Shown: positions 1 to 19,626, counted from the stretch's first letter. The stretch is 35,895 nt of DNA from a bacterium (GCA_024275575.1 JAJRYV010000056.1:1-35895), one strand, 5' to 3'. The notes: generated by a model from the sequence alone, not told the origin. Translations and numbers: made by a program.

Positions 1-26
1 AGCATGACCACAAAAGATTTCTTCAT
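1..26 (-). CDS. Start of a third tandem cytochrome c paralogue (partial, cut by window edge)
   Basis: The minus strand reads MKKSFVVML from an ATG at 26-24, and the window ends in the ninth codon. A perfect Shine-Dalgarno (AAAGGAGGT, 34-42) lies 7 nt upstream. The residues match the start of the pentahaem cytochrome next door (MKKSYMIML). The 340-nt gap before it also resembles the gap before that neighbour. I infer a third copy of the same exported cytochrome, with a signal peptide at this end. The haem-bearing part lies outside the window, so the product is inferred from the start, RBS and leader only. Confidence 0.6.
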
Positions 27-367
27 GTTAGTTACCTCCTTTAGGTAAGTGAATGGTTTTGAAAAGTGATGGATAAGTTAGTTAATTAATTTATGATTTA
101 GTTCACTCTGTGATTGGGAAAACTGACAACCAACACGAGCTTTTAAACAAAATTAAAAGAATCCTGCCGGAAGCTGCAAACCTGTCAAGCCAGAGCAAAA
201 AGTGCCAAATAATTATGTACAATATCCAACCAAATTGATTTCAGTTTTGAAGTATCAGCACATAAATTGTCCGTCACTTTTGCCCAACTCCTTTTGGATG
301 CAAAAAAAGGATTTTCGACAGGCTGGCTACTTCCGAACACGATTATTTACCCTCACTGGTAAACAAA
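27..367 (-). promoter_or_regulatory. Leader region between two cytochrome genes
   Basis: This 341-nt gap holds no credible gene. It is homologous along much of its length to the gap at 1079-1427: a near-identical 36-nt block (171-206), a shared GTGATTG(A/G)GA stretch nearer the gene, and a shared CCATCACTTTT...CTGGCTA stretch close to the upstream gene's stop. The gene unit and its leader were therefore duplicated together. I found no -24/-12 promoter with correct spacing and no strong terminator. Confidence 0.5.
171..206 (-). repeat. Duplicated intergenic element, copy 1
   Basis: On the minus strand this begins GGCACTTTTTGCTCTGG and runs on to GGTTTGCAGCTT. It is about 90% identical to 1219-1253 and lies about 145 nt upstream of the cytochrome start at 26 (copy 2 lies about 140 nt upstream of 1078). 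It contains GGCAC and TTTTTGCT, which resemble sigma-54 half-elements, but the spacing is two bases too short. It may be a regulator site or a processing/promoter element; its role is unknown. Confidence 0.6.
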
Positions 368-1078
368 TTAAATATCATGACAAGTCAGGCACATCGCGCT
401 ATTAGCATTCGACATGCGCAGGAACGGACGGTTTGAATTATCATGCGGATTGTGACAGGAAGCACATTCCACCTGATCGTTATTCGTACCGTAGAGTTGC
501 AAGACGCCCACTTTGCCGTTAGTGGCCGGGTGGAATTTTGCGTCCTGCCCCGGATCATAAGTAATTGAAATCGGGTGATCGTTGGTCAGATCAGTTCCGA
601 TGTTGGTTCCCTCAAAATTCAGGCCATCTTCAGGGTTTGCGCCAACATGACAGCTCCCAGCACAACTGGAAATTGTGGTACCAGATGGCGTCACATTGCC
701 AAACTGCGAGGTTGGAATATTGATAACCTGATCGAGACCGATTGAGTTGTCATGGCAAGACAAGCACGCCAGCGAAACACCCTGTGCGCTACCGGCGACC
801 GTCATATCGATGGTCGGACTGTCATACATAGAATAAGGGCCGGCTGGTGTCGAACGATTCCACAACGGCGCATCAATAGCAGTGTTGTTGTTGTGCGGAG
901 TGTGGCAATAAACACAAACTTCGCCCAAATCCGTGACTGTCATCCCATCGCCATTAGCTTTGCGCAGGTTGTGTGGTGTATCACTAACTTTGTTACCAAA
1001 CTGCGCATAGACATTACCGGAAACTGTGAAGCACATTACCAACGCCAGAATGAGCATGATCATATAAGACTTCTTCAT
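368..1078 (-). CDS. Exported pentahaem c-type cytochrome (OmcE-like style)
   Basis: A 236-residue protein with a signal peptide (hydrophobic residues 5-20, likely cleavage after VYA at about 25). It has five haem-binding motifs: CVYCH (55-59), CLSCH (105-109), a three-spacer CAGSCH (139-144), CASCH (205-209) and CLTCH (230-234). The CVYCHTPHN...PLWNR...CLSCHD pattern resembles small extracellular cytochromes of the OmcE type that polymerise into filaments; this is from memory of the family, not a search. The start has a GGAGG 10 nt upstream. It is 58% or more identical by eye to the paralogue at 1428 and probably belongs to the operon led by the NHL lipoprotein. The protein should be periplasmic or extracellular and carry electrons. 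Function in filaments is inference. Confidence 0.85.
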   Translation of the reverse strand: MKKSYMIMLILALVMCFTVSGNVYAQFGNKVSDTPHNLRKANGDGMTVTDLGEVCVYCHTPHNNNTAIDAPLWNRSTPAGPYSMYDSPTIDMTVAGSAQGVSLACLSCHDNSIGLDQVINIPTSQFGNVTPSGTTISSCAGSCHVGANPEDGLNFEGTNIGTDLTNDHPISITYDPGQDAKFHPATNGKVGVLQLYGTNNDQVECASCHNPHDNSNRPFLRMSNANSAMCLTCHDI

Positions 1079-1427
1079 GAAACTACTTCCTCCGATCGAT
1101 GTTGAGTTGTTATTATTACTTGAGTAGTAATTTGGGTTGATTAATTATTTCATGCACTCCGTGATTGAGATGATTTACAACCGATTGAGTCTCTTGAACA
1201 GACAACAACTCATTGAGAAAGCTGCAAACCGTCAAACCAGAGCAAAAAGTGCCTAAACTGTTGTGTACAAAATTCAAATTCGTTTTCAATTGTTTTCCTA
1301 TGAGAAATACCGAGATCGATTGTCGTCCATCACTTTTTCCAATTCCTATGGGTTGAGAACGGCTGGCTAACTTTACTTCCTTTTGTTAAATCCGATCGTT
1401 GATCTTCCTTTCTTTAAAAAACAATGA
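1079..1427 (-). promoter_or_regulatory. Leader region between cytochrome paralogues
   Basis: A 349-nt gap without a gene, homologous to the gap at 27-367. It carries the duplicated element at 1219-1253. Just past the stop of the cytochrome at 1428 there is a small ATGAT/ATCAT stem followed by TGTTTTTT, a weak candidate terminator. No correctly spaced sigma-54 promoter was found. Confidence 0.45.
1219..1253 (-). repeat. Duplicated intergenic element, copy 2
   Basis: Minus strand GGCACTTTTTGCTCTGG followed by TTTGACGGTTTGCAGCTT. It matches 171-206 with one deletion and few substitutions, at the same distance from the downstream cytochrome start. Confidence 0.6.
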
Positions 1428-2129
1428 TTAAATATCATGGCAAGTCAAACACATGGCGCTGTTATCATTCGCCATGCGCAGAAAAGGCCGGTTTGAATTG
1501 TCATGTGGATTATGGCATGACGCACATTCCACCTGATCCTTGTTTGCGCCATAGAGGCGCAAAATTCCGATCACGCCATTGGTCGCCGGGTTAAATTTTT
1601 CATCCTTGCTCGGGTCGTAAGTAATTGAAATCGGATGGTCATTGCTTAAATCAGTTCCGATAACCGTGCCTTCGAAAGTTGTCTTGTTGTGAATTGCATG
1701 ACAGAAAGAAGCACATCCGGCGATCGTGCCGCCCTGCAAGGTAATTTGTCCGAATTGCGAAGTGGGTAAATTGATCACTTGGTCGAGAGCGATGCTGTTG
1801 TCGTGACAAGAGAGGCAAGCGAGAGAAACCCCGGTTGCACTGCCGGCAATGATCATGTCAATTGAAGGACTATCGTACATGCTGTAAGGCCCGGCTGGTG
1901 TTTCACGATTCCATAACGGTGCATCAATTTGCAGGTTATTGTTATGAGGTGTATGACAATAAACACAAATTTCGCCCAGATCTGCGACACCCATATTCAG
2001 AGCTTTACGCAGATTGTGTGGGGTATCAGCAACTTTGTTACCGAAGATGCCCTGAGCAGGCAAATCACCAGAACCGCTCACACACATCAAACAGATTGAA
2101 ACCAACATCAGAATGCATGGTTTTTTCAT
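1428..2129 (-). CDS. Exported pentahaem c-type cytochrome, paralogue 2
   Basis: A 233-residue exported cytochrome with the same five-motif layout as its neighbour: CVYCH, CLSCH, the three-spacer CASFCH, CASCH and CLTCH at the extreme C-terminus. An upstream in-frame ATG at 2171 exists, but I chose the ATG at 2129. It is preceded by AGGAG (9 nt) and starts directly with a signal peptide (MKKPCILMLVS...). The Shine-Dalgarno lies inside the last codons of the NHL lipoprotein gene, whose stop is only 4 nt away, so the two are translationally coupled. The coupling suggests that the NHL protein acts on or with this cytochrome. Main differences from paralogue 1 are in the loop around the CX3CH motif. 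Confidence 0.86.
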   Translation of the reverse strand: MKKPCILMLVSICLMCVSGSGDLPAQGIFGNKVADTPHNLRKALNMGVADLGEICVYCHTPHNNNLQIDAPLWNRETPAGPYSMYDSPSIDMIIAGSATGVSLACLSCHDNSIALDQVINLPTSQFGQITLQGGTIAGCASFCHAIHNKTTFEGTVIGTDLSNDHPISITYDPSKDEKFNPATNGVIGILRLYGANKDQVECASCHNPHDNSNRPFLRMANDNSAMCLTCHDI

Positions 2130-2133
2130 TCCC

Positions 2134-3258
2134 CTAATCTCCTGTTTTTGTTGTGATTGTTTCTTCTTCAACGGGCTCTGCTTTTAAATATTGGTAAATT
2201 TGCACGCGGTGGTTGAACTGATCCACCACGTAAATCTTATCATCCTTACTAATGTACATCCCTGCCGGCAAACGCAAGTCTGCAAGGCCGGCACCGAATT
2301 GCCCAAAATTGAGTAAAAGCGTCCCGTCATCCTGAAAGATCTGCACATTGCTGAATGAAGCATCAGCAACATAAACATGACCATCGCTATCCAGCCCGAT
2401 ACCTTTTGGGCGGTATAAATTGCCCGGCAGGTTGCCAATCTTACCGAAAGCATGGTCAAATTCACCATCACCAGTGAACACCTGAACACGAAAGTTCATG
2501 GTGTCGACGACATATATCTTGCCCGTCGGCGAGATCGCGATATATGTCGGAAAACTGAGCTCCCCTTCACCACTGCCACGGTTCTGGACTTGATCGAGGA
2601 CGCCATCTGTTTTTTCTTCAGGCTCAGGTTCATCGCGGCCGACGACTTTGATGACTTTACCTGACTCAAGCTCGAAGATTTTGATCTGGTGCGCCCACGT
2701 ATCAACGACATATGCACGGTTTAATTCTTCATTTATTACGATACCGGCTGGTCGCAGGAGAATCTTTTTGCCACCGAATGCCCTGATGAAAGTCAACGTC
2801 GAGTCATAAACCATAACCCGGCCGCCACCGATATCCGTTACGTAAATATTGCCTTTCTGATCACTGGTTACCGCCAGCGGATTTTTTAAATGCCCGCGTC
2901 CGCGTCCACCAAGTCGCTCCAGCTTGTGATTGTCAAAATCGAAAACCATGACAGAGGTCACACCGGTATCAACGACGTATAAGCGTCCTTTATCATCTAC
3001 ATGCACCGTCAACGGCTTGCGCAGATAACGCAGTGCACTGCGGCCAAAAAACAATTCAAAAATTTTCTGTGTTGTACTTTTTTGGATGCCCACATCCATT
3101 TCAGAATGGACGCTGCCGATGTAACGAATTCGAGGTTGTTGCGGCGGCAACGGCCAGACAAAATCCTCGGCTTTCTTGGCAGTATCCTTTTTTAAACCAC
3201 CGGCACAACCTGCAAGCATGAATGCGAACAAAATCAAAACGATACTATGGAATCTCAT
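2134..3258 (-). CDS. NHL-repeat beta-propeller lipoprotein
   Basis: About 374 residues. It begins MRFHSIVLILFAFMLAGC, a lipoprotein signal with lipobox LAGC (Cys18). About six NHL blades follow, each with a (I/V)YVVDT..(N/H)(H/F)(R/Q)(V/I)(Q/K)(I/V)F-type core, so the protein should fold as a six-bladed propeller anchored to a membrane. No enzyme motif is visible; such propellers usually bind proteins. The reading frame extends upstream to 3357, but the signal peptide argues for the ATG at 3258 or the in-frame ATG at 3270; neither has a strong Shine-Dalgarno. It is the first gene after a good sigma-54 promoter and is coupled to the pentahaem cytochrome. NHL proteins are reported beside extracellular cytochrome-filament genes, which suggests a role in export, assembly or surface attachment (inference). 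Confidence 0.82.
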   Translation of the reverse strand: MRFHSIVLILFAFMLAGCAGGLKKDTAKKAEDFVWPLPPQQPRIRYIGSVHSEMDVGIQKSTTQKIFELFFGRSALRYLRKPLTVHVDDKGRLYVVDTGVTSVMVFDFDNHKLERLGGRGRGHLKNPLAVTSDQKGNIYVTDIGGGRVMVYDSTLTFIRAFGGKKILLRPAGIVINEELNRAYVVDTWAHQIKIFELESGKVIKVVGRDEPEPEEKTDGVLDQVQNRGSGEGELSFPTYIAISPTGKIYVVDTMNFRVQVFTGDGEFDHAFGKIGNLPGNLYRPKGIGLDSDGHVYVADASFSNVQIFQDDGTLLLNFGQFGAGLADLRLPAGMYISKDDKIYVVDQFNHRVQIYQYLKAEPVEEETITTKTGD

Positions 3259-3437
3259 TGTCGAAATCATAAAAACGGCCCTGTTTTTCTGTTCATATCC
3301 GGAGATGATGTCAACACTATTATTTCTGCTAATCAAAAACTCACCATACATAAACAATACATAAAATAATCTAATCTGCAGAAATTCAAATCAGCTGTCC
3401 ATCACAGCTAAGATTCATTGGATATTGTTTACAGAAC

Positions 3438-3452
3438 GCAACAGTAATGCCA
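3438..3452 (-). promoter_or_regulatory. Sigma-54 (-24/-12) promoter of the NHL-cytochrome operon
   Basis: Minus strand TGGCATTACTGTTGC. GG and GC are separated by exactly 10 nt, as in the consensus TGGCACGNNNNTTGC, and the -12 TTGC is perfect. Predicted transcription start is near 3426. The neighbouring NtrC-type regulator fits, because such promoters need an enhancer-binding ATPase. Confidence 0.65.
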
Positions 3453-3580
3453 GAATCGCATTTAGATAAAAAAAGAAAAAAAGAGCACTTTATTTGAAAA
3501 CCAAACGATGAAAAAACAGGCGGTTACAGAAAAGAAATCCAGAGGTGGGGATAAGTGAAAATATAAACAGAACTAATAAA

Positions 3581-3615
3581 GTGCGCTATATCGCACAGCT
3601 AATGCGCTATTTAAC
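3581..3615. promoter_or_regulatory. Paired operator motifs, probable enhancer site
   Basis: Two copies of a TGCG(A/C)TAT motif start 21 bp apart, about two helical turns. The first is near-palindromic, GTGCGCTATATCGCAC (3581-3596); the second is TGCGCTATTTAAC (3603-3615). They lie about 155-190 bp upstream of the predicted start from the -24/-12 promoter at 3438. The same motif pair recurs at 6898-6934. Confidence 0.55.
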
Positions 3616-3670
3616 GCTGACGATAAATTAATTTGATAAAAAACAAAAACATCCCCTTTTTGCAGCAGCT

Positions 3671-5041
3671 TCAATTCAACAAATTATACTTTTTCATTTT
3701 ATATCGCAAGGCATGGCGGGAAATATTCAACAATTTGGCGGCGTGTGATTGGTTTTGGTTGGTGTTTGCCAGTGCTTTAATGACCAGCGATCGCTCTACT
3801 TCGTCAAGCGGCGTACCCTCGGCGGAAAAGGTTAAACTACCTGCTTCATCAGACAGTCCATTATAATACAAGACCTCGGCAGGCAGGTGCTCCGGCAGAA
3901 TAGTATCGCCTGTCTCGAGAATGATGACTCTTTCGATAACATTGCGCAACTCGCGAATATTGCCCGGCCAGCGGTAGCTGCATAATTTCTTCATCGCCGC
4001 TTTGGAGATTTTGTGCAAGCTCTTTTTGAACTTTTTATTAAAATGCTCAACGAAATGAAGCACCAGCAATTCGATATCCTGTTCCCGCTGAAAAAGCGGC
4101 GGTAGTTCGATGGGAATAATATTCAATCGGTAATAAAGGTCTTCACGAAACAGCTCCTCTTTTACCAGTTTCTTCAAATCCTTGTTGGTTGCCGCGATGA
4201 CCCGAATATCTACAGAGATATCCTTGGTTCCACCGACGCGTTTAAATTGCTTTTCTTCGATGAAGCGTAACAGTTTTACCTGAAAAGAGGGGCTCGCATC
4301 ACCAATCTCATCGAGCAGAATCGAACCCCGGTTTGCCAGCTCAAATATACCTTGCTTGCGTCCTTTCGCATCTGTAAAGGCGCCCATTTCATAACCGAAC
4401 AACTCACTTTCAAGCAATGTATCGGGTAGCGCGCCACAATTCACCGCCATAAACGGATAATCCATACGCGGACTCTCATAATGAATGGCTTTGGCGACGA
4501 TATCTTTGCCGGTTCCACTCTCTCCGGTGATGAGTATCGTCTCCGCATCGCTGTGAGCAACCTTGTCGACCAAATTGATCACTTGCTGCATTTGTGGTGA
4601 TTTCCCGATGATTTGATCGATGCCAAATCGTGATTTCAACTGTTTGTTTAAGGTTGAAACCTTCTGACTCAATTCCTGTGTTTTCAATACTTTGTCAATA
4701 TTCAGTTTAAGTTCGTCACAGGTAAATGGTTTTTTAATAAAATCAGCGGCACCGATTTTGATTGCTTCGACTGCGGTTTGTACAGTGGCATAAGCCGTCA
4801 TCATGATGATAATCTGTTCCGCATTTTCAGCAAGAATGGCTTTTAAGACCTGAAGCCCGTCGATATCCGGCAATTTCAAATCGAGCAGCACCAGGTCTGG
4901 GGTATTTCTTGCATACTGCTTGATACCGCTTTTGCCGTTGCTTACCGTTTCTACTTTATAACCCATGCTTGTTAGATCACGCGATAAAGACCAGGTAATC
5001 AATTTGTCATCATCGATAATAAGAATTTTATTTTTTTCCAT
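3671..5041 (-). CDS. NtrC-family sigma-54-dependent response regulator
   Basis: A 456-residue activator in three parts. The receiver domain (1-120) has acidic residues DDD at 10-12, the phospho-acceptor Asp54 in LLDLKLPD, and Lys104 in KKPF. The AAA+ domain (about 142-375) has Walker A GESGTGKD (173-180) and Walker B ILLDEIGD. A Fis-type helix-turn-helix ends the protein (NQSHAAKLLNISRHALRYKM). The sigma-54 contact loop reads GAFTDA instead of GAFTGA. I chose the ATG at 5041 because AGGG lies 5 nt upstream and the receiver starts there; the frame is open to 5074. It lies 163 nt downstream of the haem-motif kinase, its likely partner. It probably drives the two local -24/-12 promoters through the repeated operator motifs (inference). 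Confidence 0.93.
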   Translation of the reverse strand: MEKNKILIIDDDKLITWSLSRDLTSMGYKVETVSNGKSGIKQYARNTPDLVLLDLKLPDIDGLQVLKAILAENAEQIIIMMTAYATVQTAVEAIKIGAADFIKKPFTCDELKLNIDKVLKTQELSQKVSTLNKQLKSRFGIDQIIGKSPQMQQVINLVDKVAHSDAETILITGESGTGKDIVAKAIHYESPRMDYPFMAVNCGALPDTLLESELFGYEMGAFTDAKGRKQGIFELANRGSILLDEIGDASPSFQVKLLRFIEEKQFKRVGGTKDISVDIRVIAATNKDLKKLVKEELFREDLYYRLNIIPIELPPLFQREQDIELLVLHFVEHFNKKFKKSLHKISKAAMKKLCSYRWPGNIRELRNVIERVIILETGDTILPEHLPAEVLYYNGLSDEAGSLTFSAEGTPLDEVERSLVIKALANTNQNQSHAAKLLNISRHALRYKMKKYNLLN

Positions 5042-5204: not shown

Positions 5205-6674
5205 TTATAGTTCAGCAATTGAGCCGACCGGAAGCTCGATAATAAATGTTGTTCCACGACCGTCTTCACTTTCAAAATAAATAACGCCTTTATGGCGATT
5301 GATGATCTCTTTGCAGAGAAACAGCCCCAGACCAACACCTTTATCTTTGGTGGTAAAAAACGGTTCGAATACTTTGTGTTTTAAATCGGCAGGGATACCT
5401 TTCCCCGTATCGCTAATTTGAATATTGATATTCTTTTCATCTTCTATAAATTTTACATTTATAGTAAGTTGTCCCCTGTTAGACATCGCCTGGATCGCAT
5501 TGATGATGAGATTCATGAGCACCTGTTCGATCTGGCGGCTATCGGCGAGAATTTCGGGCAGGTTTTCATCGATAAAACTTTTCGTCTTCAACTGCTTCGT
5601 ATCCTGCTGGGAAACGAAAAGGATAATACGTTCGATCATCGGCTTCAGGTTGGTTGGGAACCGTTCAAAACGGCTTTCTCGTGCGATCGTCAGCAGGGCC
5701 TCGAGATTTTGCTCAACGCGATGCGCTTGCCGGACAATCTCCTCAAAAATTTCGCGACGGCTGTCGTCTGCCGGAGTTTCACGCAAAATGGAATTTGCCG
5801 CGAATACAATCCCAGAAATTGGATTTTTAATTTCATGCGCCATACCGGCTGCCAGCTCACCTACTTTTGCGATAGATTCCACTTTCACGAGCTCACGGTT
5901 GTGTAATTCCAATAGTTCATTTCTTGCTGCCTGCAATTTTTCCCCCATTTCGTTCATGCCTTTCGCTAATAAACTGATTTCATCACGCGGGATATTTTTA
6001 ATGCGGTATGAAAAATTCTCTTTTTTCATTTCATCCATGGCTTTTTTTAAATCTTTAATGGGTCCATCCACTGAGCGGTTGAATAAAACATGTGTTGCCA
6101 ACGATAAGGTGACGATGGCGACAAACGTAATTCCGCATAAAATTAGAATGATCGAATTTTGGTCCGCAAAAGAATTTTCTGCGCGCGTTTTGACCAGCGA
6201 AACACCAAGAATTTTGCGCTTCGGGTTGTGACAGCTATTGCAGCGCCCGCGGTTTTTCAGCTTTTTCAGCAAAATCGCCTCAACGAAACCATCGACGGTT
6301 TGCGTTGACAGGCGAACACTGTCCCGACTGGTGATAAAATCGCCCAATTCATGATGATCAGTCGGCTGAAAGAGAGAGTCGACATGTGCTGTTAGCCGAA
6401 CCCTTCCCAGCGTATCCAAAAAACTGACTTCCGTCAGATGGGGCAAGTTTATGAATTCGAGCAAAGTATTACGCAGTAAATCCGGCTCGTTGAGTCCGGA
6501 TTGAGCGAGCACCTTTTCAAAAATCTCAGTAAAAATTGTAACATCGGTAGTCACATGCTCTTTCACTGTGCTCTTGTGCAAAATGAGGCCGAAATAGAAC
6601 GTAACGACCGTAGCCAGGGAAATAATAAAGAATATGTGAGCAACAACCCGGGACCTGAGCTTTCTGAAAACCAT
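5205..6674 (-). CDS. Membrane sensor histidine kinase with a c-type haem motif in its periplasmic domain
   Basis: About 489 residues. Transmembrane helix 1 (about 12-33), a periplasmic domain (about 34-173), helix 2 (about 174-198), HAMP, a HisKA box (AAGMAHEIKNPISG, His at about 280) and an HATPase with N (NLIINAIQAM), DTGKGIP and GVGLGLFLCKEI boxes. The periplasmic domain carries CNSCH (about 145-149), a canonical covalent-haem motif, just before helix 2. I infer sensing of redox state, a ligand such as NO/O2, or electron flow. The ATG at 6674 is preferred over the TTG codon just before it. It is the first gene of a kinase-regulator operon with its own -24/-12 promoter. Haem attachment is inferred from the motif and the periplasmic location. 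Confidence 0.92.
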   Translation of the reverse strand: MVFRKLRSRVVAHIFFIISLATVVTFYFGLILHKSTVKEHVTTDVTIFTEIFEKVLAQSGLNEPDLLRNTLLEFINLPHLTEVSFLDTLGRVRLTAHVDSLFQPTDHHELGDFITSRDSVRLSTQTVDGFVEAILLKKLKNRGRCNSCHNPKRKILGVSLVKTRAENSFADQNSIILILCGITFVAIVTLSLATHVLFNRSVDGPIKDLKKAMDEMKKENFSYRIKNIPRDEISLLAKGMNEMGEKLQAARNELLELHNRELVKVESIAKVGELAAGMAHEIKNPISGIVFAANSILRETPADDSRREIFEEIVRQAHRVEQNLEALLTIARESRFERFPTNLKPMIERIILFVSQQDTKQLKTKSFIDENLPEILADSRQIEQVLMNLIINAIQAMSNRGQLTINVKFIEDEKNINIQISDTGKGIPADLKHKVFEPFFTTKDKGVGLGLFLCKEIINRHKGVIYFESEDGRGTTFIIELPVGSIAEL

Positions 6675-6703
6675 CAATTGTTCTCTAAAATGATAATGAC
6701 CAA

Positions 6704-7330: not shown

Positions 7331-8575
7331 ATGATGAAAACTAGAAAACTGTTTACCTTTCTTTTTGCTGCTTCCGTCTTTTCGCATGCTGCGGGATTGC
7401 CTGCCCCCGCTCAGGCAGCGACTTCAAATATCAAACATATTTTCTCCATTTCGGAAGGTTTACGCAGTCCACTGCGCATCGCTGTCACCACAGATGATTA
7501 TGTTTATGTTGCCGACGTCACCGCCAGAAAAATTTGCAAGTATAACCTGCAGGGCAACTTGATGGCAGAAATCAATCTTCCTTCGGTGCCGCTGGCTTTA
7601 AGTGTCACCCCGGAAAAGCAATTGCTCATCGGTGATCCACAAGGGCGCCTGCAGCTTTTTGACGCCGGCGGGGTACTGCTGAAACCGGCGCCTAATCCCT
7701 ATGGTATCGCCAATTTGCCGGTTGATGCGGCAATGGATGATGATAATAATCTTTACCTTGTCGATAGCAACAACAAATCCGTAAAAGTTTTTAATGCTAC
7801 CGGTGCACTCGTGCGCACTTTCGGCTCAGATATCATGATTTTCCCCACAAGCATCACCATCGACCACCTCAACAACCGGCTTCTCGTTGCGGATCACGGT
7901 GGTTTATTTAGCGAAAACCAGACGAATGGTCTCATTCATATTTATGATTTCCACGGGAATTACCTTTCATCTTTTGCCGAATTCGGCACAAAACCAGGCC
8001 AGTTTTCACGAATTCAGGGCATCACCATCGATCAGTCCGGGCACATCCTTGCCGCGGACCCGTTTCAGGGCAAAGTCACGATTTTAGATAAGAATGGCGC
8101 CTATTTGGGTTCAGTTGGCAGATTTGGAACTGAAGCCGGAGAATTTCAGATGCCGATGGACGTGGCTGTGGATTCAAAAAATCAACTCTGGGTTGCTTCG
8201 ACAAATACCGGCCGGGTCGAAGTTTTTGCTCTCGGTGATCCTGTCTCAGCAGTGACTGAAGCAGAAGCGCCCGCCATGTTTTCGAAAAACATTCTATTGC
8301 AAAACTTTCCCAATCCATTTAAAAAAGGCACCTGGATTCCTTTCATCATCAGTGAAAACAGCCACGTTACGCTGCGCATCTACAGCGGCGTTGGGCGCCT
8401 CGTGCGCACTATCGATGCCGGCGACATGGCAGCAGGCGCTTACGATAGCAAAGCGCGGGCAATTTTCTGGGACGGAACCAGCAATACTGGGGAGCGGCTC
8501 TCTACCGGGCTATATTTCTGCAAGTTTGCCGCCGATGATTTTAGTGCAATGAAACGCCTGATTTTATTAAAATAA
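7331..8575 (+). CDS. Secreted NHL-repeat protein with C-terminal FlgD-like/T9SS sorting domain
   Basis: A 414-residue protein with a signal peptide (to about residue 29, AQAA). The middle (about 35-300) holds NHL-type blades, for example VYVADVTARKICKY, LYLVDSNNKSVKVF and ILAADPFQGKVTIL. The last 85 residues are a FlgD-like sorting domain starting QNFPNPFKKGTWIPF and ending FAADDFSAMKRLILLK. This predicts export through the outer membrane and surface attachment or release. TAAGG lies 6 nt before the first of two adjacent ATGs. It leads the plus-strand operon, 23 nt ahead of a 17-haem cytochrome, and parallels the NHL-plus-cytochrome pairing on the minus strand, so it probably works on or beside the cytochromes at the cell surface (inference). 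Confidence 0.85.
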   Translation: MMKTRKLFTFLFAASVFSHAAGLPAPAQAATSNIKHIFSISEGLRSPLRIAVTTDDYVYVADVTARKICKYNLQGNLMAEINLPSVPLALSVTPEKQLLIGDPQGRLQLFDAGGVLLKPAPNPYGIANLPVDAAMDDDNNLYLVDSNNKSVKVFNATGALVRTFGSDIMIFPTSITIDHLNNRLLVADHGGLFSENQTNGLIHIYDFHGNYLSSFAEFGTKPGQFSRIQGITIDQSGHILAADPFQGKVTILDKNGAYLGSVGRFGTEAGEFQMPMDVAVDSKNQLWVASTNTGRVEVFALGDPVSAVTEAEAPAMFSKNILLQNFPNPFKKGTWIPFIISENSHVTLRIYSGVGRLVRTIDAGDMAAGAYDSKARAIFWDGTSNTGERLSTGLYFCKFAADDFSAMKRLILLK

Positions 8576-8598
8576 ATCGAAACTTTTGAAGGTAGAAA

Positions 8599-10734
8599 AT
8601 GACTGTTAACAAGGAATGTATTGCCGATTATCCGATCCCGGTTACAAGCAGGAGCCTGAAAACAACAGTACAGATCATTTGTTGCTTATTCATATTTTTC
8701 AACATGTTCCGACCCCTTGCAGGGCAGGAAAAAGGCAATCAGCCAAAACTTTTATTCGACGGCAACAACCCGACAATCCAGGCGATCGATGCGCCACACT
8801 GGGGCACAACGATTGAATGTCTCTCCTGCCATGCATTGCATGAAAGTCCGGGTGGCCAATTGACCGCTGTTGCGGGAAATGCCAATTTGTGCATGAGTTG
8901 CCATAACCCAACCGGCCAGGCCGGCGCCAAACCCTTTGTCGCAGCAGACAAAGCAGTGCCCGGGACCAGTGGCACCTCGCACGCCTGGGATGTGGCAGCA
9001 GACAATCCGACGCACGGTGCAGCGCTGCCGGCGAACCCCGATATCAGTAGGCAAATCATCAATGGGCAGATTATTTGTTCCACCTGTCACGACCAGCACA
9101 AACAAACTTTTCAGCCATTTTTGCGGGCGGATAATACTGACGACGCTATGTGCCGCGATTGCCATGCTGAGCGCGATATCGGCAGTTATCGTGACAACCC
9201 TGGAAACAAGGGCAGCCATCCCATCGATCTACAGGGTTCACTCACCTGCTCAAGCTGTCATCAGGTACATTTTGCTTATACCGGCGGCGCCTACCCGCAG
9301 GGCGACGGCTATTTATTAAAACAGGCAAATGACGACAATTTATGCATGAATTGCCACGACACCTATGGCCCACACATGGGCATGGGCTGCCGCAAATGTC
9401 ACAAACCACACGATCCCAACAAACAGAATATTTTGCTTGTCAAAGACCGTATCTGGACGCCCAACAGCGGGCAGAAAAATGTGCGTTTTTACAGCGAAAC
9501 CGGCGCTTTTTCATTTGCCGACGGCGATAATACTTACGACGGCATTTGCGAAATCTGCCACACACAAACCAACCATTTTCGTAACGACGGCAGTGGGCCG
9601 ACACAAAATCATGAAAATTTTGCCGGTGGTTATGCCGGCGCAAACTGTACCGACTGTCACTTACACAAGAACGCATTCCTGCACGGAAGTGGCGGCACAG
9701 GCTGCATCGAATGTCATGGACACGACAAGGATTTCGAGTATGAGCCGGGGCTTTTCAGCGCTGGTGCCGGGACTTCGCAAAGCCATTCGACGCATACCGA
9801 GGATGACGCTGACGATATTCGCGGACCGCTACTCGTTTGCGCCGATTGCCACGATACCAACAATTTTCCGACTTTTGCCGACGGACAAGACCTGACAAAT
9901 ACTACCGTTTGTGACGCTTGCCACAGTGCAGACGGCGCCTTCGACGGATTATCATCTGTCAACGGTTCCATCGGCGCCAAAGATAATTGGAAAACCGGTG
10001 TTTACACTGCAACCGACAGTTTGCAAACAGGCAAAGAAAAATGGTGTGTCGGCTGCCATGACCAGGGCAGTTCCACCATTGAAGGCGTGAGCGCGCCGCC
10101 GGTCGCCGGTGATAATTCAGTTTGGGGCTATTATGCCAAAGGGCACGGCCTGAATAACAAAGCCATCTGCTCCGATTGCCATGATTTGAGCACCGATCAC
10201 CTCGACGGCGAACCGCGCACCTACAGTTCAGGTAGCAATAATTACACTGCCGGGTATCGACTGCGCAGTGACCTGACCCTGCTTGTACCCAATCCACAGG
10301 GGACGAAAAACATCACAGAATCTGACTATAATCTATGCTGGCAAAGTTGTCATACTTTAAATGCGCTGCTCAATAACACCAATTTTTCAAAAGGCATGGG
10401 TGGCAAGAGCCTGCACCAAAAACATCTGAAAGAAAATGCCCGGAATAGAGAAGGCTGGCAATCGGACTGGAGTGTACCGCTCGATTCACCGAACAGCGAT
10501 TCACGGGTGACCTGCCCAGCCTGCCACAATATGCATGGATCAGATAACAATTATCAGGTGCGGGATGGCCGTTTAACCAATGGGAACGGGAATATTGGAT
10601 TTACCGGCGGCGGTGGTAGTGGTACTTGCAGTGGTCAGTATTGCCACGGTAATGAAAGTTACGGTGGTGGCATGGGCGGAGGTATCAATCACAAAGATTT
10701 ACTTTACAGCCCAGCAGATTCATCTCGCCGCTGA
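8599..10734 (+). CDS. Large multihaem c-type cytochrome (about 17 haem sites)
   Basis: A 711-residue exported protein. The hydrophobic signal segment (about 24-42) follows an unusually long polar start; GAAGGT lies 5 nt before the ATG. I count 15 CXXCH motifs (from CLSCH near residue 75 to CPACH near 640), plus one CX3CH (CWQSCH) and one CX4CH (CSGQYCH) near the C-terminus. The last pair resembles the CxxxxCH/CxxCH domain known from Geobacter cytochromes. The N-terminal 370 residues or so are strongly paralogous to the 1285-residue cytochrome downstream (APHWG..IECLSCH, GNANLCMSCHNPTG, MGMGCRKCHKPHDP). The tail is Gly/Ser rich. Likely a periplasmic or extracellular electron conduit; location and partner unknown. 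A strong terminator ends the operon. Confidence 0.92.
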   Translation: MTVNKECIADYPIPVTSRSLKTTVQIICCLFIFFNMFRPLAGQEKGNQPKLLFDGNNPTIQAIDAPHWGTTIECLSCHALHESPGGQLTAVAGNANLCMSCHNPTGQAGAKPFVAADKAVPGTSGTSHAWDVAADNPTHGAALPANPDISRQIINGQIICSTCHDQHKQTFQPFLRADNTDDAMCRDCHAERDIGSYRDNPGNKGSHPIDLQGSLTCSSCHQVHFAYTGGAYPQGDGYLLKQANDDNLCMNCHDTYGPHMGMGCRKCHKPHDPNKQNILLVKDRIWTPNSGQKNVRFYSETGAFSFADGDNTYDGICEICHTQTNHFRNDGSGPTQNHENFAGGYAGANCTDCHLHKNAFLHGSGGTGCIECHGHDKDFEYEPGLFSAGAGTSQSHSTHTEDDADDIRGPLLVCADCHDTNNFPTFADGQDLTNTTVCDACHSADGAFDGLSSVNGSIGAKDNWKTGVYTATDSLQTGKEKWCVGCHDQGSSTIEGVSAPPVAGDNSVWGYYAKGHGLNNKAICSDCHDLSTDHLDGEPRTYSSGSNNYTAGYRLRSDLTLLVPNPQGTKNITESDYNLCWQSCHTLNALLNNTNFSKGMGGKSLHQKHLKENARNREGWQSDWSVPLDSPNSDSRVTCPACHNMHGSDNNYQVRDGRLTNGNGNIGFTGGGGSGTCSGQYCHGNESYGGGMGGGINHKDLLYSPADSSRR

Positions 10735-10742
10735 TTGAATAC

Positions 10743-10771
10743 AAAACCCCGTTTTTTTTAACGGGGTTTTT
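10743..10771 (+). terminator. Intrinsic terminator after the 17-haem cytochrome
   Basis: A perfect 11-bp stem AAAACCCCGTT / AACGGGGTTTT with a T-rich loop and trailing T. It starts about 8 nt after the stop codon and separates this operon from the next cytochrome gene. Confidence 0.88.
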
Positions 10772-10926
10772 ACCATCTGGTAAATGATGTCGGAATTTTG
10801 ATTTCTGTGGCGCCCGTACATCATAAAAACTTTTCATACGGATTCTTCCGCCACTTTCAGGAAAAACATCAATGGGTTTGATCGGGCGGACTATTTTTCA
10901 AAAAAAAGTATCTGTTTACCCTCCCC

Positions 10927-10948
10927 CCGCCGGATGTCGGCGGTTTTT
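10927..10948 (+). terminator. Terminator-shaped hairpin in the leader of the giant cytochrome gene
   Basis: CCGCCG-GATGT-CGGCGG followed by TTTTT lies about 60 nt before the ATG at 11007 and just after the box GTATCTGTTTA (10908-10918). It has the shape of an intrinsic terminator placed inside a leader, so it may act as an attenuator or insulator. The region 10772-10907 before it shows no clear promoter. Confidence 0.55.
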
Positions 10949-11006
10949 AAACTTAAAATAACGAAAATGCAGGACAGGCAACTGTTACCCCCAAAAGGTA
11001 AAAGCC

Positions 11007-14000
11007 ATGAAAATGGGTAAAACAATTGTTTTACTATGCATCACGGTTTTACCGATGCAGCAACAGGGATATGGCCGACAAAGAGGAAAAGTGCCGCTTT
11101 CACGTGTGGAAATGGAGAAAGCGGCAGCGTTGGCCTCGCCGGATGCACCGCACTGGGGCGATTCAATCGAATGCTTATCCTGCCACATGTTGCATGAAAG
11201 CAAAGGCGCCCAACTGACGAATGTCGCCGGCAACGCCAACTTATGCATGAGCTGCCACAACCCCACCGGCCGTGCGAGCGCAAAACCGTTTACCAATGCC
11301 GACAGGGCCATCCCCGGCACTTCCGGGACCTCGCACGCCTGGGACAAACCGGCCACGAAGCCACAGTTCGGCGCAGCGCCACCGACAAACACCGAGATGA
11401 GCAGAAGACTTTTTAATGATAAAATCGTTTGTTCAACCTGTCACAATCAGCACAAACAGACCTTTTCACCCTTTTTGCGGGATTCGAATAACGGCAACGC
11501 CCTGTGCAAGGACTGCCATAGTGTACGCGACGTGCCCAGCTACCGCAGCGATGCCAACAGCAAAGGCAGTCACCCGGCCGGTGTTGTCTACCCGGTTTCC
11601 GACTCGCGATTTTTCAGCAGCCCCCAGAATCCCAATTTACCGCTGATCGATCCCGACAAAGTGGAATGCACAACCTGCCACAAGCCCCACTTTGCCAGCT
11701 CGGGTGACACCAGCAACGGTCAGGGTGACGGTTATATTCTGCGTGATAAAAACGATGATCAACTCTGCATGGATTGCCACACTTACACGGCGCACATGGG
11801 CATGGGCTGCTGCAAATGCCACCAGCCCCACGATCCGGACCAGAACAATATTTTGCTGGTGAAAGAGACCGTCTCAACACCAAATAGCGGTTATAAATCG
11901 GTTGTTTTCATACAGGAATCGGGCGTCAGTTCCTTTGCCGACGGCAACAGTACCTACAATGGGATTTGCGAGGTTTGCCACACACAAACGGCCTACCACC
12001 GTAACAACATCAGCGGTAACCACACACACAACGCCGGTGATAATTGCACCGTTTGCCATAAACACGAGAAAAGTTTTATTCCGCCGCCATGCCACGAATG
12101 CCACGACCAGCCGCAGGACAACGGCGACGGCATCCCCGCCGGCGGCCGCCGCGCTATCGTCGGCGAATTGACCGGCATGAGCCACCACCTGCAAAGCGCC
12201 TCCCTCAAGCCGGATGATTGCCGGATCTGCCACGACATGAGCAAGCATAGCCAGGGCCGCGTGCGACTGAAAGACCGCGACAATTCGGCAATAATTTATG
12301 AACTCATCAACCGCCCGATGGATGATTATACCGAAGCGCTGAAACTCGAACCATTTTGCCTCAATTGCCATGATGGTGATAGCGACACCCCATTTGCCGA
12401 TGGCAAAATATCGCCGCAGGTCGATGCCGGCATGTGGCAGAATTCCGCCCACAAAAAAGGCGGCTCCGGCCTCAAACTAACCTGCATGGGAAAAAACGAT
12501 GAATTCGGTTGCCACGCCACCGGCCACGGATCGGATAATATCAAAATCTTAAATACCGACAATGCTCTGGAAACCCTCGATAAATTCTGTTACAAATGCC
12601 ATACAGCCGGCAAGGTTGAAAATCTCGCCCTGTCCGGCGCCGCAGTCTCGAATGATATCGAAGAAGTATTCATGAAAAGTGAAAAACACAATTTGGGCAC
12701 CCAATTCACCACGGATGGCAAAACTTTCACCCTGCAATGTACTTCCTGCCACAATCCACACATCGTCACCGGGAAGCATTGGGATGTGGCATCCGGAGTT
12801 TCGCCGGTAACGCGACCGGATTTAAATGCTGACCCGGCAACCAATCAGCGCGCTATGGGCAATGCCCTCTGGGGCGCTTCCTCCGGCCAAAAAATGCGGG
12901 ATTTTGCTGCGCAGGGTAGCGGCACCGGTGGTTGGTATTACAGTACGGCGCGCGGCGGCACGATTTCCTGGGATCAACCAGCGGTCTACCAGCCCCCGAA
13001 AAAAGGCTCCGGCTACAATTTCGAATTCAGCAGCAGTGTGCTGCCGGACTATCCTACTCTCTGCCTCGATTGCCATTCACAGCGAGTGAGCCCGAGCAAC
13101 CCACCCGTAAACTGGGGTCAGGGCATCTCCTGCACCGACAACAGCGTCGACCCGCCTAATCAGCGTATCGAATGCGGCGCACAGCATGGCCTCAATGCCG
13201 CGGGCATGCCGAATTATGTCAGTGATCAGGGCAAAGCCGGGTTCTGGGGAAGCAGCGGTAATCCCGATGTACTTTTTCACATGAATTATGTCACCCGCGG
13301 GCGCGGTGTGGGACATTTCATGCGCTGGCCCTATGATTCCGCTGAACGCACGGCAGGAATAAATTTTGTTCTCTCCTGCACCGATTGCCACGAGTCGCAC
13401 GGTTCCAATGCCGCCTCGATGCTGCGCTCGACCATCAACGCTTACGGTGCCGGCACCAGCAACTGGAACACGATGTGCAATAACTGCCACTACTATTACG
13501 GCGGCCAGCATGCAGGAATGAGCTGCGGCAACGCTTCCTGCCACGAAGCCAATTCGATTCACCGGATTATTCATACGACCGATAGCGGCGCCGGTACAAA
13601 GCTGCAGCTTACCGCTTCAGGAAACGAAAGTAATTACCAGCGCCCGGATTTCACGCCGGACATCATCAAAGCGGAAAGTGATATCGGCAGCAATCAAATT
13701 CAATTAATTTTCCGCGGCGGCGTTTACACGAACAGCAACCTCACCGGCAGCGTCAACACCAGTGACTTCTGGTATTTCGACGTCGGCGGCAACAATCCCA
13801 AATATATCACCAATATTTCGCACAGCGCCGGTGCAAGCACGGCCACCGTCCATATGAGCAGCGCGCTTACTTCCGCTGATCTCAACAATGACATCATCGC
13901 CTCGCGCGGCAAAACCATCTGGAACTGGTACGACGGTGGTTATGTCAACTCCGCCACCGGCACTATTCCCGCACAGGCTGTTTCTGCCGGACCCTGGCCG

Positions 14001-14864
14001 GTGACAATTTCGAGGAAATGCCCCACAGGCACGGTTGCATTTCAGCTCAACGAATCTGCCGGCAGCTCCACGGCTTCCGATCAGAACGGCTATTTTGTCG
14101 GCTCCGTCAGTAATCCCTCGGTGGTTTTCCCCGGAGACGGTTATTTTCACGGCGAGGAAAGCCAGGGGACTTATATCGAGTTCAACAGCAATAACGACTG
14201 TCTCATTTCTCCGAGTTCTACCGGTTATCAGCGCGAATTAACCATCGAAGCACGCTTCCGGCCCAGCGTGGTCGACCTTGATTTCACCGACAGCGATGGC
14301 GACAGCATCGACGACAACACACGCACCAGCACACAACTGCGCGTCTTCGAGCGCAAAAGAACGTTTCAACTCACCGTCATGCGCGGCGACTGGATGACAG
14401 ACAATGTACTGGATCGCGCCGGCAAAGCCCGCATCATCTTTAAATTCCGCGCTGCACCGCCCTACCGCCGCGATTGTGGCGCCGATGGCCCGGGTGCATG
14501 GATGAAACAGGTCTATTCCGACATCAACAGCTATCCCATCGTGGCGAACCACTGGTATCGTGTCAAAGTCGTTTTCAATTCCAACGATTCTCAAATTCCG
14601 GTACGAATTTATGGTGATGATTTGGGAACGGACGGCAATGGCGCCGGTGAAAACTGGGGTGGTTTCGTACAAATTTTCTCATCGAACCCCAACGACAGTG
14701 GCGCCTGCAAATGGGTCTCGCAACCAGGGGATGAAATGGCTGTTGAAAGCCAACCGACGATCATCGGAGATAACACCGTACACAATGATGTTCCCGGAGA
14801 CAGCGGCAACCAGTTGTTTAAAGGAGAGATTGACTGGATTACGTGGAAATCGTTCGTTGATTAG
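11007..14864 (+). CDS. Giant multihaem cytochrome with C-terminal LamG-like domain
   Basis: 1285 residues with a short signal peptide (about 1-23); AAAAGGT is 8 nt before the ATG. I count 17 CXXCH motifs (including CCKCH), one CX4CH (CGNASCH near 855) and one possible CX8CH (CMGKNDEFGCH near 505), all in the first 860 residues. The first 370 residues are paralogous to the 711-residue cytochrome upstream; the rest of the haem region is different. From about 870 a haem-free part follows: an Ig-like segment (IQLIFRGGVYTN...SDFWYFDVG), then a concanavalin/LamG-like region (about 1010-1285; VAFQLNESAG..., LTIEARFRPS, HWYRVKVVFNSND, GEIDWITWKSF). LamG folds usually bind glycans or surfaces, so I infer a cell-surface cytochrome that touches polysaccharide, minerals or other cells. 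No sorting domain is visible at its C-terminus. Confidence 0.9.
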   Translation: MKMGKTIVLLCITVLPMQQQGYGRQRGKVPLSRVEMEKAAALASPDAPHWGDSIECLSCHMLHESKGAQLTNVAGNANLCMSCHNPTGRASAKPFTNADRAIPGTSGTSHAWDKPATKPQFGAAPPTNTEMSRRLFNDKIVCSTCHNQHKQTFSPFLRDSNNGNALCKDCHSVRDVPSYRSDANSKGSHPAGVVYPVSDSRFFSSPQNPNLPLIDPDKVECTTCHKPHFASSGDTSNGQGDGYILRDKNDDQLCMDCHTYTAHMGMGCCKCHQPHDPDQNNILLVKETVSTPNSGYKSVVFIQESGVSSFADGNSTYNGICEVCHTQTAYHRNNISGNHTHNAGDNCTVCHKHEKSFIPPPCHECHDQPQDNGDGIPAGGRRAIVGELTGMSHHLQSASLKPDDCRICHDMSKHSQGRVRLKDRDNSAIIYELINRPMDDYTEALKLEPFCLNCHDGDSDTPFADGKISPQVDAGMWQNSAHKKGGSGLKLTCMGKNDEFGCHATGHGSDNIKILNTDNALETLDKFCYKCHTAGKVENLALSGAAVSNDIEEVFMKSEKHNLGTQFTTDGKTFTLQCTSCHNPHIVTGKHWDVASGVSPVTRPDLNADPATNQRAMGNALWGASSGQKMRDFAAQGSGTGGWYYSTARGGTISWDQPAVYQPPKKGSGYNFEFSSSVLPDYPTLCLDCHSQRVSPSNPPVNWGQGISCTDNSVDPPNQRIECGAQHGLNAAGMPNYVSDQGKAGFWGSSGNPDVLFHMNYVTRGRGVGHFMRWPYDSAERTAGINFVLSCTDCHESHGSNAASMLRSTINAYGAGTSNWNTMCNNCHYYYGGQHAGMSCGNASCHEANSIHRIIHTTDSGAGTKLQLTASGNESNYQRPDFTPDIIKAESDIGSNQIQLIFRGGVYTNSNLTGSVNTSDFWYFDVGGNNPKYITNISHSAGASTATVHMSSALTSADLNNDIIASRGKTIWNWYDGGYVNSATGTIPAQAVSAGPWPVTISRKCPTGTVAFQLNESAGSSTASDQNGYFVGSVSNPSVVFPGDGYFHGEESQGTYIEFNSNNDCLISPSSTGYQRELTIEARFRPSVVDLDFTDSDGDSIDDNTRTSTQLRVFERKRTFQLTVMRGDWMTDNVLDRAGKARIIFKFRAAPPYRRDCGADGPGAWMKQVYSDINSYPIVANHWYRVKVVFNSNDSQIPVRIYGDDLGTDGNGAGENWGGFVQIFSSNPNDSGACKWVSQPGDEMAVESQPTIIGDNTVHNDVPGDSGNQLFKGEIDWITWKSFVD

Positions 14865-18498: not shown

Positions 18499-19626
18499 AT
18501 GAAGAAGAAAATGCAATGGATCGTCATGCTCCTGATAACCTTTGCCATCATCATCGGCAGCACCAGCTTAATGGCGCAACACGATTTCGGTGGCCGCGGC
18601 ATGATGCATTCACAACTAACTGAAGACCAGCGCACCCAACTGCTCGAGACTGTTTCACAACTGCGTGAGAGCAATGCCAGCCGTGAAGAAATCCGCGCAG
18701 CGGTCGCTACCCTGTTTGAAAGCTGGGGGCTTGAAGCACCGCAATTTGGACAGCATGCCGGGTTCAGCCGTGGAATGGGGCAAAAAGGCGCCTTCATCGA
18801 TGCGAACACCACTGCTGAACAGCGTATCGAACTCTACGCTAAACACGATGAAATGTGGAAAAGCGGCGCTACGCATGAAGAAATGCGCACAGCGGCATAT
18901 GCGTTGTTGACTTCATGGGGAATCGAATTGCCGGACACAACTGCCTGCCCCGGCATCGGTATACACAGAGAAAACCACGAGGATGAACTGATGCAGGAAC
19001 AGCGTGTTGCAGTGCGCGCAAAAATTAAAGAAATGCGTATTGCCGGAAAATCCCGCAAAGAAATCCACGATGCCGTTGCAGAAATCCTCAAAGGTTTTGG
19101 CGTTGAACTGCCTGGTAAACCTGAATATTCGCGTTCAGGCCGGGGCCATGGCCGCATGGGCCAAAAACCGCAATTAACCGACGGGCAGCGCGCTGCACTT
19201 TATGCCAAACAGCAGGAATTGCTGGCAACTGGCGCAACCCATACCGAGTTGCGCCAAGCCCGCCTAACGATGTTGCAGGAATGGGGTTTCAGCCGGCCGA
19301 ATACACCTCGCGGCGACCAACCGATGCGTGGCAGAAAACACGGTGAAACCCGCGGTATCCAGGCCTGCAATTATCCCAACCCTTTCAACCCGCAAACCAA
19401 TATCAGCTATACACTGGAAAATGCCGGTCAGGTTAAAGTGAGTATTTTCAACTTGAGGGGACAGGAGTTACGGGTGCTGTTTAGCGGCAGCCAATCGGCC
19501 GGCGAACACACTGTACGCTGGGATGGCAAACTGGCCAACGGCGAGTCGGCAGGTTCAGGAACTTATCTCTATCGTATTGAAACGGTCGGTCAGGTGACGA
19601 CTAATAAGATGATTTTAATGAAATAA
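18499..19626 (+). CDS. Secreted four-repeat helical protein with T9SS/FlgD-like sorting domain
   Basis: 375 residues: signal peptide (1-26, SLMAQ), four repeats of about 45 residues, then a C-terminal sorting domain. Each repeat has the pattern (T)xxQRxxLxxKxxEMxxxGATxxE(M/L)RxAxxxLLxxWGxExP: about 40-82, 104-146, 163-205 and 224-266. The repeats are predicted amphipathic helical pairs, divided by Gly/Arg/His/Met-rich linkers (RGMGQK, GRGHGRMGQK). The C-terminus (NYPNPFNPQTNISYTL ... GSGTYLYRIETV ... KMILMK) is a classic FCB sorting domain. The repeats loosely recall the metal-binding Spy/CpxP LTxxQ helices, so a periplasmic or extracellular metal or chaperone role is possible. I do not recognise a named family. 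Followed by a terminator. Confidence 0.78.
   Translation: MKKKMQWIVMLLITFAIIIGSTSLMAQHDFGGRGMMHSQLTEDQRTQLLETVSQLRESNASREEIRAAVATLFESWGLEAPQFGQHAGFSRGMGQKGAFIDANTTAEQRIELYAKHDEMWKSGATHEEMRTAAYALLTSWGIELPDTTACPGIGIHRENHEDELMQEQRVAVRAKIKEMRIAGKSRKEIHDAVAEILKGFGVELPGKPEYSRSGRGHGRMGQKPQLTDGQRAALYAKQQELLATGATHTELRQARLTMLQEWGFSRPNTPRGDQPMRGRKHGETRGIQACNYPNPFNPQTNISYTLENAGQVKVSIFNLRGQELRVLFSGSQSAGEHTVRWDGKLANGESAGSGTYLYRIETVGQVTTNKMILMK

Follow-up and report, generated by a model that had tools for sequence, protein, structure and literature searches.

A sigma-54-linked gene cluster for candidate OmcE-type filament cytochromes with a putative fifth haem site in candidate division KSB1

Cytochrome wires of solved structure are known from Geobacter and a few archaeal species. 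The window analysed here, the first 35,895 bases of a contig (C30) from a bacterial genome for which the nearest relatives with a name carry the label candidate division KSB1 / Calditrichaeota, opens with multihaem cytochrome genes arranged in tandem behind the gene for an NHL lipoprotein, and the original prediction was that this is a candidate cytochrome filament locus. Do these genes specify the subunits of a wire, and if so, of what kind?

The three cytochrome copies and their origin

The start of the window is the end of the contig. On the minus strand, from position 3258 down to 1, lie the NHL lipoprotein gene, two complete cytochrome genes (A and B) and the opening 26 bases of a third (C), as expected of the tandem triplication that had been predicted behind the lipoprotein gene. 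The features discussed below are (position, strand, description):

1..26, minus: cytochrome C, first 26 bp (MKKSFVVM and two bases); the rest is on contig C138 (L007 1-681)
27..367, minus: B-C leader, with a block, GGCACTTTTTGCTCTGG, near-identical to that of the A-B leader
368..1078, minus: cytochrome B, OmcE-type, 236 residues, with a signal peptide, four CXXCH and one CX3CH
647..664, minus: fifth motif of cytochrome B, CAGSCH (C139-C143-H144)
1079..1427, minus: A-B leader
1428..2129, minus: cytochrome A, OmcE-type paralogue, orthologue of G001_a
1698..1715, minus: fifth motif of cytochrome A, CASFCH, followed by AIH
2134..3258, minus: NHL (6-bladed-propeller-type) lipoprotein, lipobox LAGC, stop at 2134, ATG at 3258 (or 3270)
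3437..3452, minus: sigma-54 -24/-12 site, TGGCATTACTGTTGCG, upstream of the NHL gene
3671..5041, minus: NtrC-type response regulator (receiver, sigma-54 activator and Fis HTH)
5205..6677, minus: membrane histidine kinase whose sensor part contains a CXXCH
7331..8575, plus: divergent NHL protein with a T9SS sorting tail, conserved beside the cluster
8599..10734, plus: divergent multihaem cytochrome, 711 residues, 15 CXXCH
11007..14864, plus: divergent multihaem cytochrome, 1285 residues, 17 CXXCH

Only 4 bp separate the NHL lipoprotein gene from that of cytochrome A, downstream. The expectation that the DNA to the left of position 1 would also prove to be a cytochrome was borne out: copy C resumes at the first base of contig C138, where a single base missing between the two contigs restores its frame and, across this gap, its 17-residue signal start aligns with that of B. 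We infer from these sequences a C30-C138 junction that runs through copy C with a 1-bp gap. In a genome of the same genus (G001) an NHL gene, two cytochrome genes, a PpiC foldase gene and a barrel gene follow one another on one contig.

At the protein level, A is 74% and C 81% identical to B, and the A-B and B-C leaders are 72% identical, far above shuffles; the copies thus share leaders as well as signal start, as had been proposed. The dN/dS between copies is about 0.04-0.08, with dS near saturation, which indicates purifying selection. The low dN/dS and the identity of the leaders together indicate that the genes have been maintained, and that leader and gene were duplicated together. The shared leader corresponds to no known RNA, since an Rfam search over positions 1-3700 found neither a riboswitch nor any other RNA; its folding was not clearly better than that of shuffles, except in G001. 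The leader block GGCACTTTTTGC resembles a sigma-54 site, but was rejected as such because 8 and not 10 bases lie between its GG and GC.

In the tree, the KSB1 cytochromes with five motifs form one clade (support 100/100), within which copy A pairs with G001_a (100/99), and B, C and G001_b lie close together in a branching order that the tree does not settle. A, on the one hand, and the B/C pair, on the other, are two conserved subunit types, and B/C looks, from the sequences, like the more recent duplication. Eight of the 10 KSB1 genomes show a single cytochrome copy, and the multiplication therefore belongs to the present genus, which has two to three copies in tandem.

Homology to OmcE and linkage to NHL genes

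In a phmmer search with B, only two chains of the PDB were matched, 9YUQ (5e-27) and the OmcE nanowire 7TFS (1e-25); a profile built from 67 relatives matched both over their full length (7TFS, 5.7e-54; 9YUQ, 7e-48), the remaining matches being partial or much weaker. The value obtained for OmcE, together with the purifying selection, makes it clear that the cytochrome copies are not a product of chance. The AlphaFold2 model of mature B is of moderate confidence (mean pLDDT 62), falling below 50 in residues 1-51 and in the fifth-motif loop (89-133); in a Foldseek search its sole significant match in the PDB was 7TFS (E 1.9e-8, probability 1.00, TM 0.58/0.60), with an identity to OmcE of only about 31% in the fold alignment. 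An alignment of 26 sequences, OmcE included, showed the four CXXCH motifs and four non-motif His residues (H36, H62, H168 and H212, B numbering) to be invariant; among 67 homologues the four motifs, H168 and H212 were invariant and H36 and H62 were conserved above 90%. One of the retained His residues lies some 11 residues into the predicted mature protein, and the order of the CXXCH motifs is that of OmcE. Thus, the likeness to OmcE that had first been noticed in the motif pattern extends to the full length, the ligands and the fold. The KSB1 copies have five motifs, however, and not exactly four haem sites, and are for this reason regarded as an OmcE variant rather than OmcE proper.

The NHL gene is likewise part of this relationship. 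According to the original prediction, NHL proteins are reported near OmcE-type genes. A Geoalkalibacter OmcE homologue beside two NHL proteins is on record (PMC12016550). In the Geobacter-order loci, whose OmcE orthologues have 38-66% identity to OmcE, we found an NHL gene directly upstream in 19/19 cases, and it is likewise directly upstream in all 10 KSB1 genomes with the cytochrome; NHL adjacency, where it is used here to mark OmcE-type loci, is this observed linkage and not a published definition. In other phyla, fused 10-11-haem relatives with enough flanking sequence have an NHL gene directly upstream in 30 of 33 cases, and tetrahaem relatives have one on either side in 39 of 73. The genome studied here has only six ORFs with NHL repeats at E 1e-3, two of which are in this region. 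The NHL-OmcE gene pair is, then, common to lineages from Geobacter through KSB1. The Geobacter-order loci (L160-L178) also show a recurring cluster: an 8-haem protein, often accompanied by a 9-10(+1)-haem protein, comes first, and NHL and OmcE follow. Several loci add a second NHL gene and a 3-haem protein of PpcA size.

OmcE polymerises into filaments in which haem is ligated by a His of a neighbouring subunit (PMC9473688). The KSB1 proteins could instead be monomeric pentahaem cytochromes, extracellular or periplasmic, that act as electron shuttles or pass electrons to a soluble or mineral acceptor and do not polymerise; very few relatives are of known structure, most homologues are uncharacterised, and catalysis could take place at a fifth haem if it were five-coordinate. 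However, the KSB1 proteins retain every one of the four non-motif His residues of OmcE, that near the mature N-terminus among them, the linkage to NHL is common to OmcE orthologues, and no enzyme family was matched above the cut-off; we consider monomers unlikely. Filament-type cytochromes of the OmcE family are probably the core of what we read as a sigma-54-controlled cluster for extracellular electron transfer (see below).

A fifth motif in the KSB1 cytochromes

The motif that sets the KSB1 copies apart, C-x3-C-H, is located between haem site II and the NDHP histidine. It is present in every copy (12/12 distinct sequences, in 13 rows from 10 genomes) and absent from the other relatives in the alignment (0/55) and from the Geobacter-order OmcE orthologues (0/19). 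The term pentahaem, used in the original prediction, consequently holds as a count of motifs, four CXXCH and one C-x3-C-H per copy, of which the fifth is a putative haem site. In the stretch 137-151, C139, C143 and H144 alone are invariant, the loop being otherwise variable. A conserved fifth distal His was sought in the alignments of 26 and 67 sequences and none was found; moreover, the sequences from G003, G005, G019 and G028 have no His besides those of the CXXCH motifs, the four distal ligands and H144. Three Met residues are invariant (M46, M84 and M92), and judging from the alignment they are possible partners of the putative fifth haem; M46 is the one with no evident counterpart outside KSB1.

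These observations bear on whether the fifth motif binds haem at all. The subunits could form a filament with four haems each, the C-x3-C-H serving as a disulphide or surface staple, and the lack of a conserved fifth distal His, the four genomes with no spare His and the poor prediction of the loop all agree with this. Yet the loop, variable elsewhere, keeps H144 as well as both Cys residues without exception, and for a disulphide the His would be superfluous; in addition, CX3CH was counted as a candidate haem motif in a published survey (PMC10734462), and C-x3-C-H is also conserved at the C-terminus of related 11-haem (UetJ-like) proteins. A four-haem filament seems to us a real possibility, if somewhat doubtful. 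A bolder reading is a pentahaem nanowire of the OmcE type, each subunit of which would bear, on a C-x3-C-H lacking a conserved His partner, a branched surface haem that makes the wire 'leaky' along its length; A and B/C would then give wires that differ in the chemistry of the side haem, or one mixed wire. In this specific form the proposal is possible but not likely.

The gene cluster, its proposed working and comparison with known systems

KSB1 loci with enough flanking sequence share the order CXXCH kinase, sigma-54 regulator, NHL lipoprotein, cytochrome(s), SurA/PpiC foldase, multihaem protein(s) and a barrel of about 655 residues; the cluster also includes large multihaem lipoproteins, and several loci hold the divergent NHL gene, with its T9SS tail, and large cytochromes. 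In several KSB1 genomes the T9SS-sorted NHL gene and two large cytochrome genes (7331-14864 in the window) are kept beside the cluster. The -24/-12 site before the NHL gene has the form TGGCAYN5TTGC; it is conserved in 8/8 KSB1 loci examined, and its score was matched by shuffles in at most 6/500. The sensor part of the kinase, which gave a weak match to PF21563 (Mcp40H-20 sensor), has its CXXCH in all seven kinases checked. Cytochrome c assembly genes (PF01578) are present in the genome. Two further proteins were noted: at 18499-19623 in the window, one with repeats of the type LTxEQRxxLxxxxxxLRxxGATxEEIRxAV whose C-terminus is a sorting-type tail, and elsewhere in the genome (L008 4707-7733, C71) a large cytochrome of 1009 residues with 25 CXXCH and one CX3CH.

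The foldase gene (L007, C138, 799-1794; domains SurA_N and Rotamase) has an in-frame TGA where all eight KSB1 homologues have Gly. The TGA is a nonsense change or an assembly error, and the gene is broken or misassembled in this genome. Selenocysteine at this position, considered because a tRNA-Sec and SelB are encoded nearby, was ruled out by the Gly in all eight homologues. The tRNA-Sec itself (Rfam; L007 9512-9605) lies close to a SelB-like elongation factor (11715-13631), so that the genome probably makes selenoproteins. The barrel (L007 1948-3909) is predicted, from a model with a pLDDT of 89, about 28 long strands and a C-terminal Phe, to be an outer-membrane barrel of about 28 strands. 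Foldseek gave generic outer-membrane barrels with TM below 0.5 and no solved relative specific to it, and hmmsearch found nothing significant. In the model, a beta-rich insertion some 80 residues long (370-450) lies between strands and is possibly a docking piece for the cytochromes.

Our reading of the cluster draws on homology, ligand conservation, the fold match, gene linkage, the promoter motif and the predicted barrel; inferred in it are polymerisation, ligation in trans, a fifth haem, which way electrons flow and what the NHL protein, foldase and barrel do. The membrane kinase, with its haem-c-like sensor, would signal to the sigma-54 activator, which would switch on the -24/-12 promoter before the NHL gene. 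Sec would export the cytochromes and Ccm would attach their haems; the dedicated SurA/PpiC foldase may aid their maturation. At the cell surface they would polymerise in the manner of OmcE, a His of one subunit completing the haem of the next, to give a continuous haem wire; to cross the outer membrane, electrons would travel through the barrel with its multihaem lipoproteins, and the NHL lipoprotein at the surface may anchor, cap or nucleate the wire. In the KSB1 lineage each subunit would have gained a fifth attachment site in the variable loop. As no fifth distal His is conserved, the haem at this site would lie off the main chain, as a side haem (His/Met or five-coordinate) that could be a lateral exit for electrons. 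An uncultivated phylum would then hold a candidate OmcE-type wire whose regulator, foldase, barrel and conduit genes are all clustered with it. The NHL, foldase and barrel genes, which are conserved together, are concrete candidates for the poorly known machinery that exports, anchors and assembles such wires.

The Uet cluster of Gallionella and Tenderia comprises UetA (tetrahaem), UetB (PPIase), UetC (barrel), UetHI (NHL) and UetJ (undecahaem) (PMC10734462). As in Uet of Ca. Tenderia electrophaga and Gallionella, genes for a tetrahaem-type extracellular cytochrome, a PPIase, a beta-barrel and NHL proteins are found together here, a correspondence that counts the PPIase gene with the in-frame TGA. 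Since the list of parts is that of Uet (PMC10734462), electrons could be taken up, from minerals or cathodes, rather than exported. However, the direction cannot be read from sequence, and a UetJ-like protein was found neither in this genome, which has no long match beyond the three cytochromes, nor in the KSB1 five-motif clusters; inward transfer thus appears rather improbable. In place of UetJ the KSB1 clusters have large multihaem lipoproteins and the divergent T9SS-sorted NHL protein, and their cytochrome, unlike that of Uet, carries the fifth motif. The UetJ-like proteins of other phyla (for example, L047 11123-12829, L064 15629-17314 and L085 9808-11529) have an OmcE-like four-haem N-terminal part followed by seven more CXXCH and the C-terminal C-x3-C-H; from this composition they could occupy a terminal or basal position in OmcE-like wires.

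The closest likeness of the proposed KSB1 filament is to that of OmcE from Geobacter sulfurreducens (7TFS), in full-length homology, the four CXXCH, the four distal His residues, the best fold match and, for the Geobacter-order orthologues, the adjoining NHL gene. OmcE differs in having four haems and not five motifs, and the KSB1 side in its tandem copies in this genus, its clustered foldase and outer-membrane barrel and its sigma-54 control. PDB 9YUQ, a putative multihaem cytochrome c of 16 chains, also shares the full-length homology and the four CXXCH, but has no fifth motif. For the fifth site the proposed analogue is the OmcZ filament, also of G. sulfurreducens, a polymer with a branched, solvent-exposed haem (PMC9473688); OmcZ, however, is octahaem and lacks inter-subunit ligation, and no sequence relation to the KSB1 copies was found. 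The fifth site, confined to KSB1, would offer a direct test of an insulated wire becoming leaky, as OmcZ did independently.
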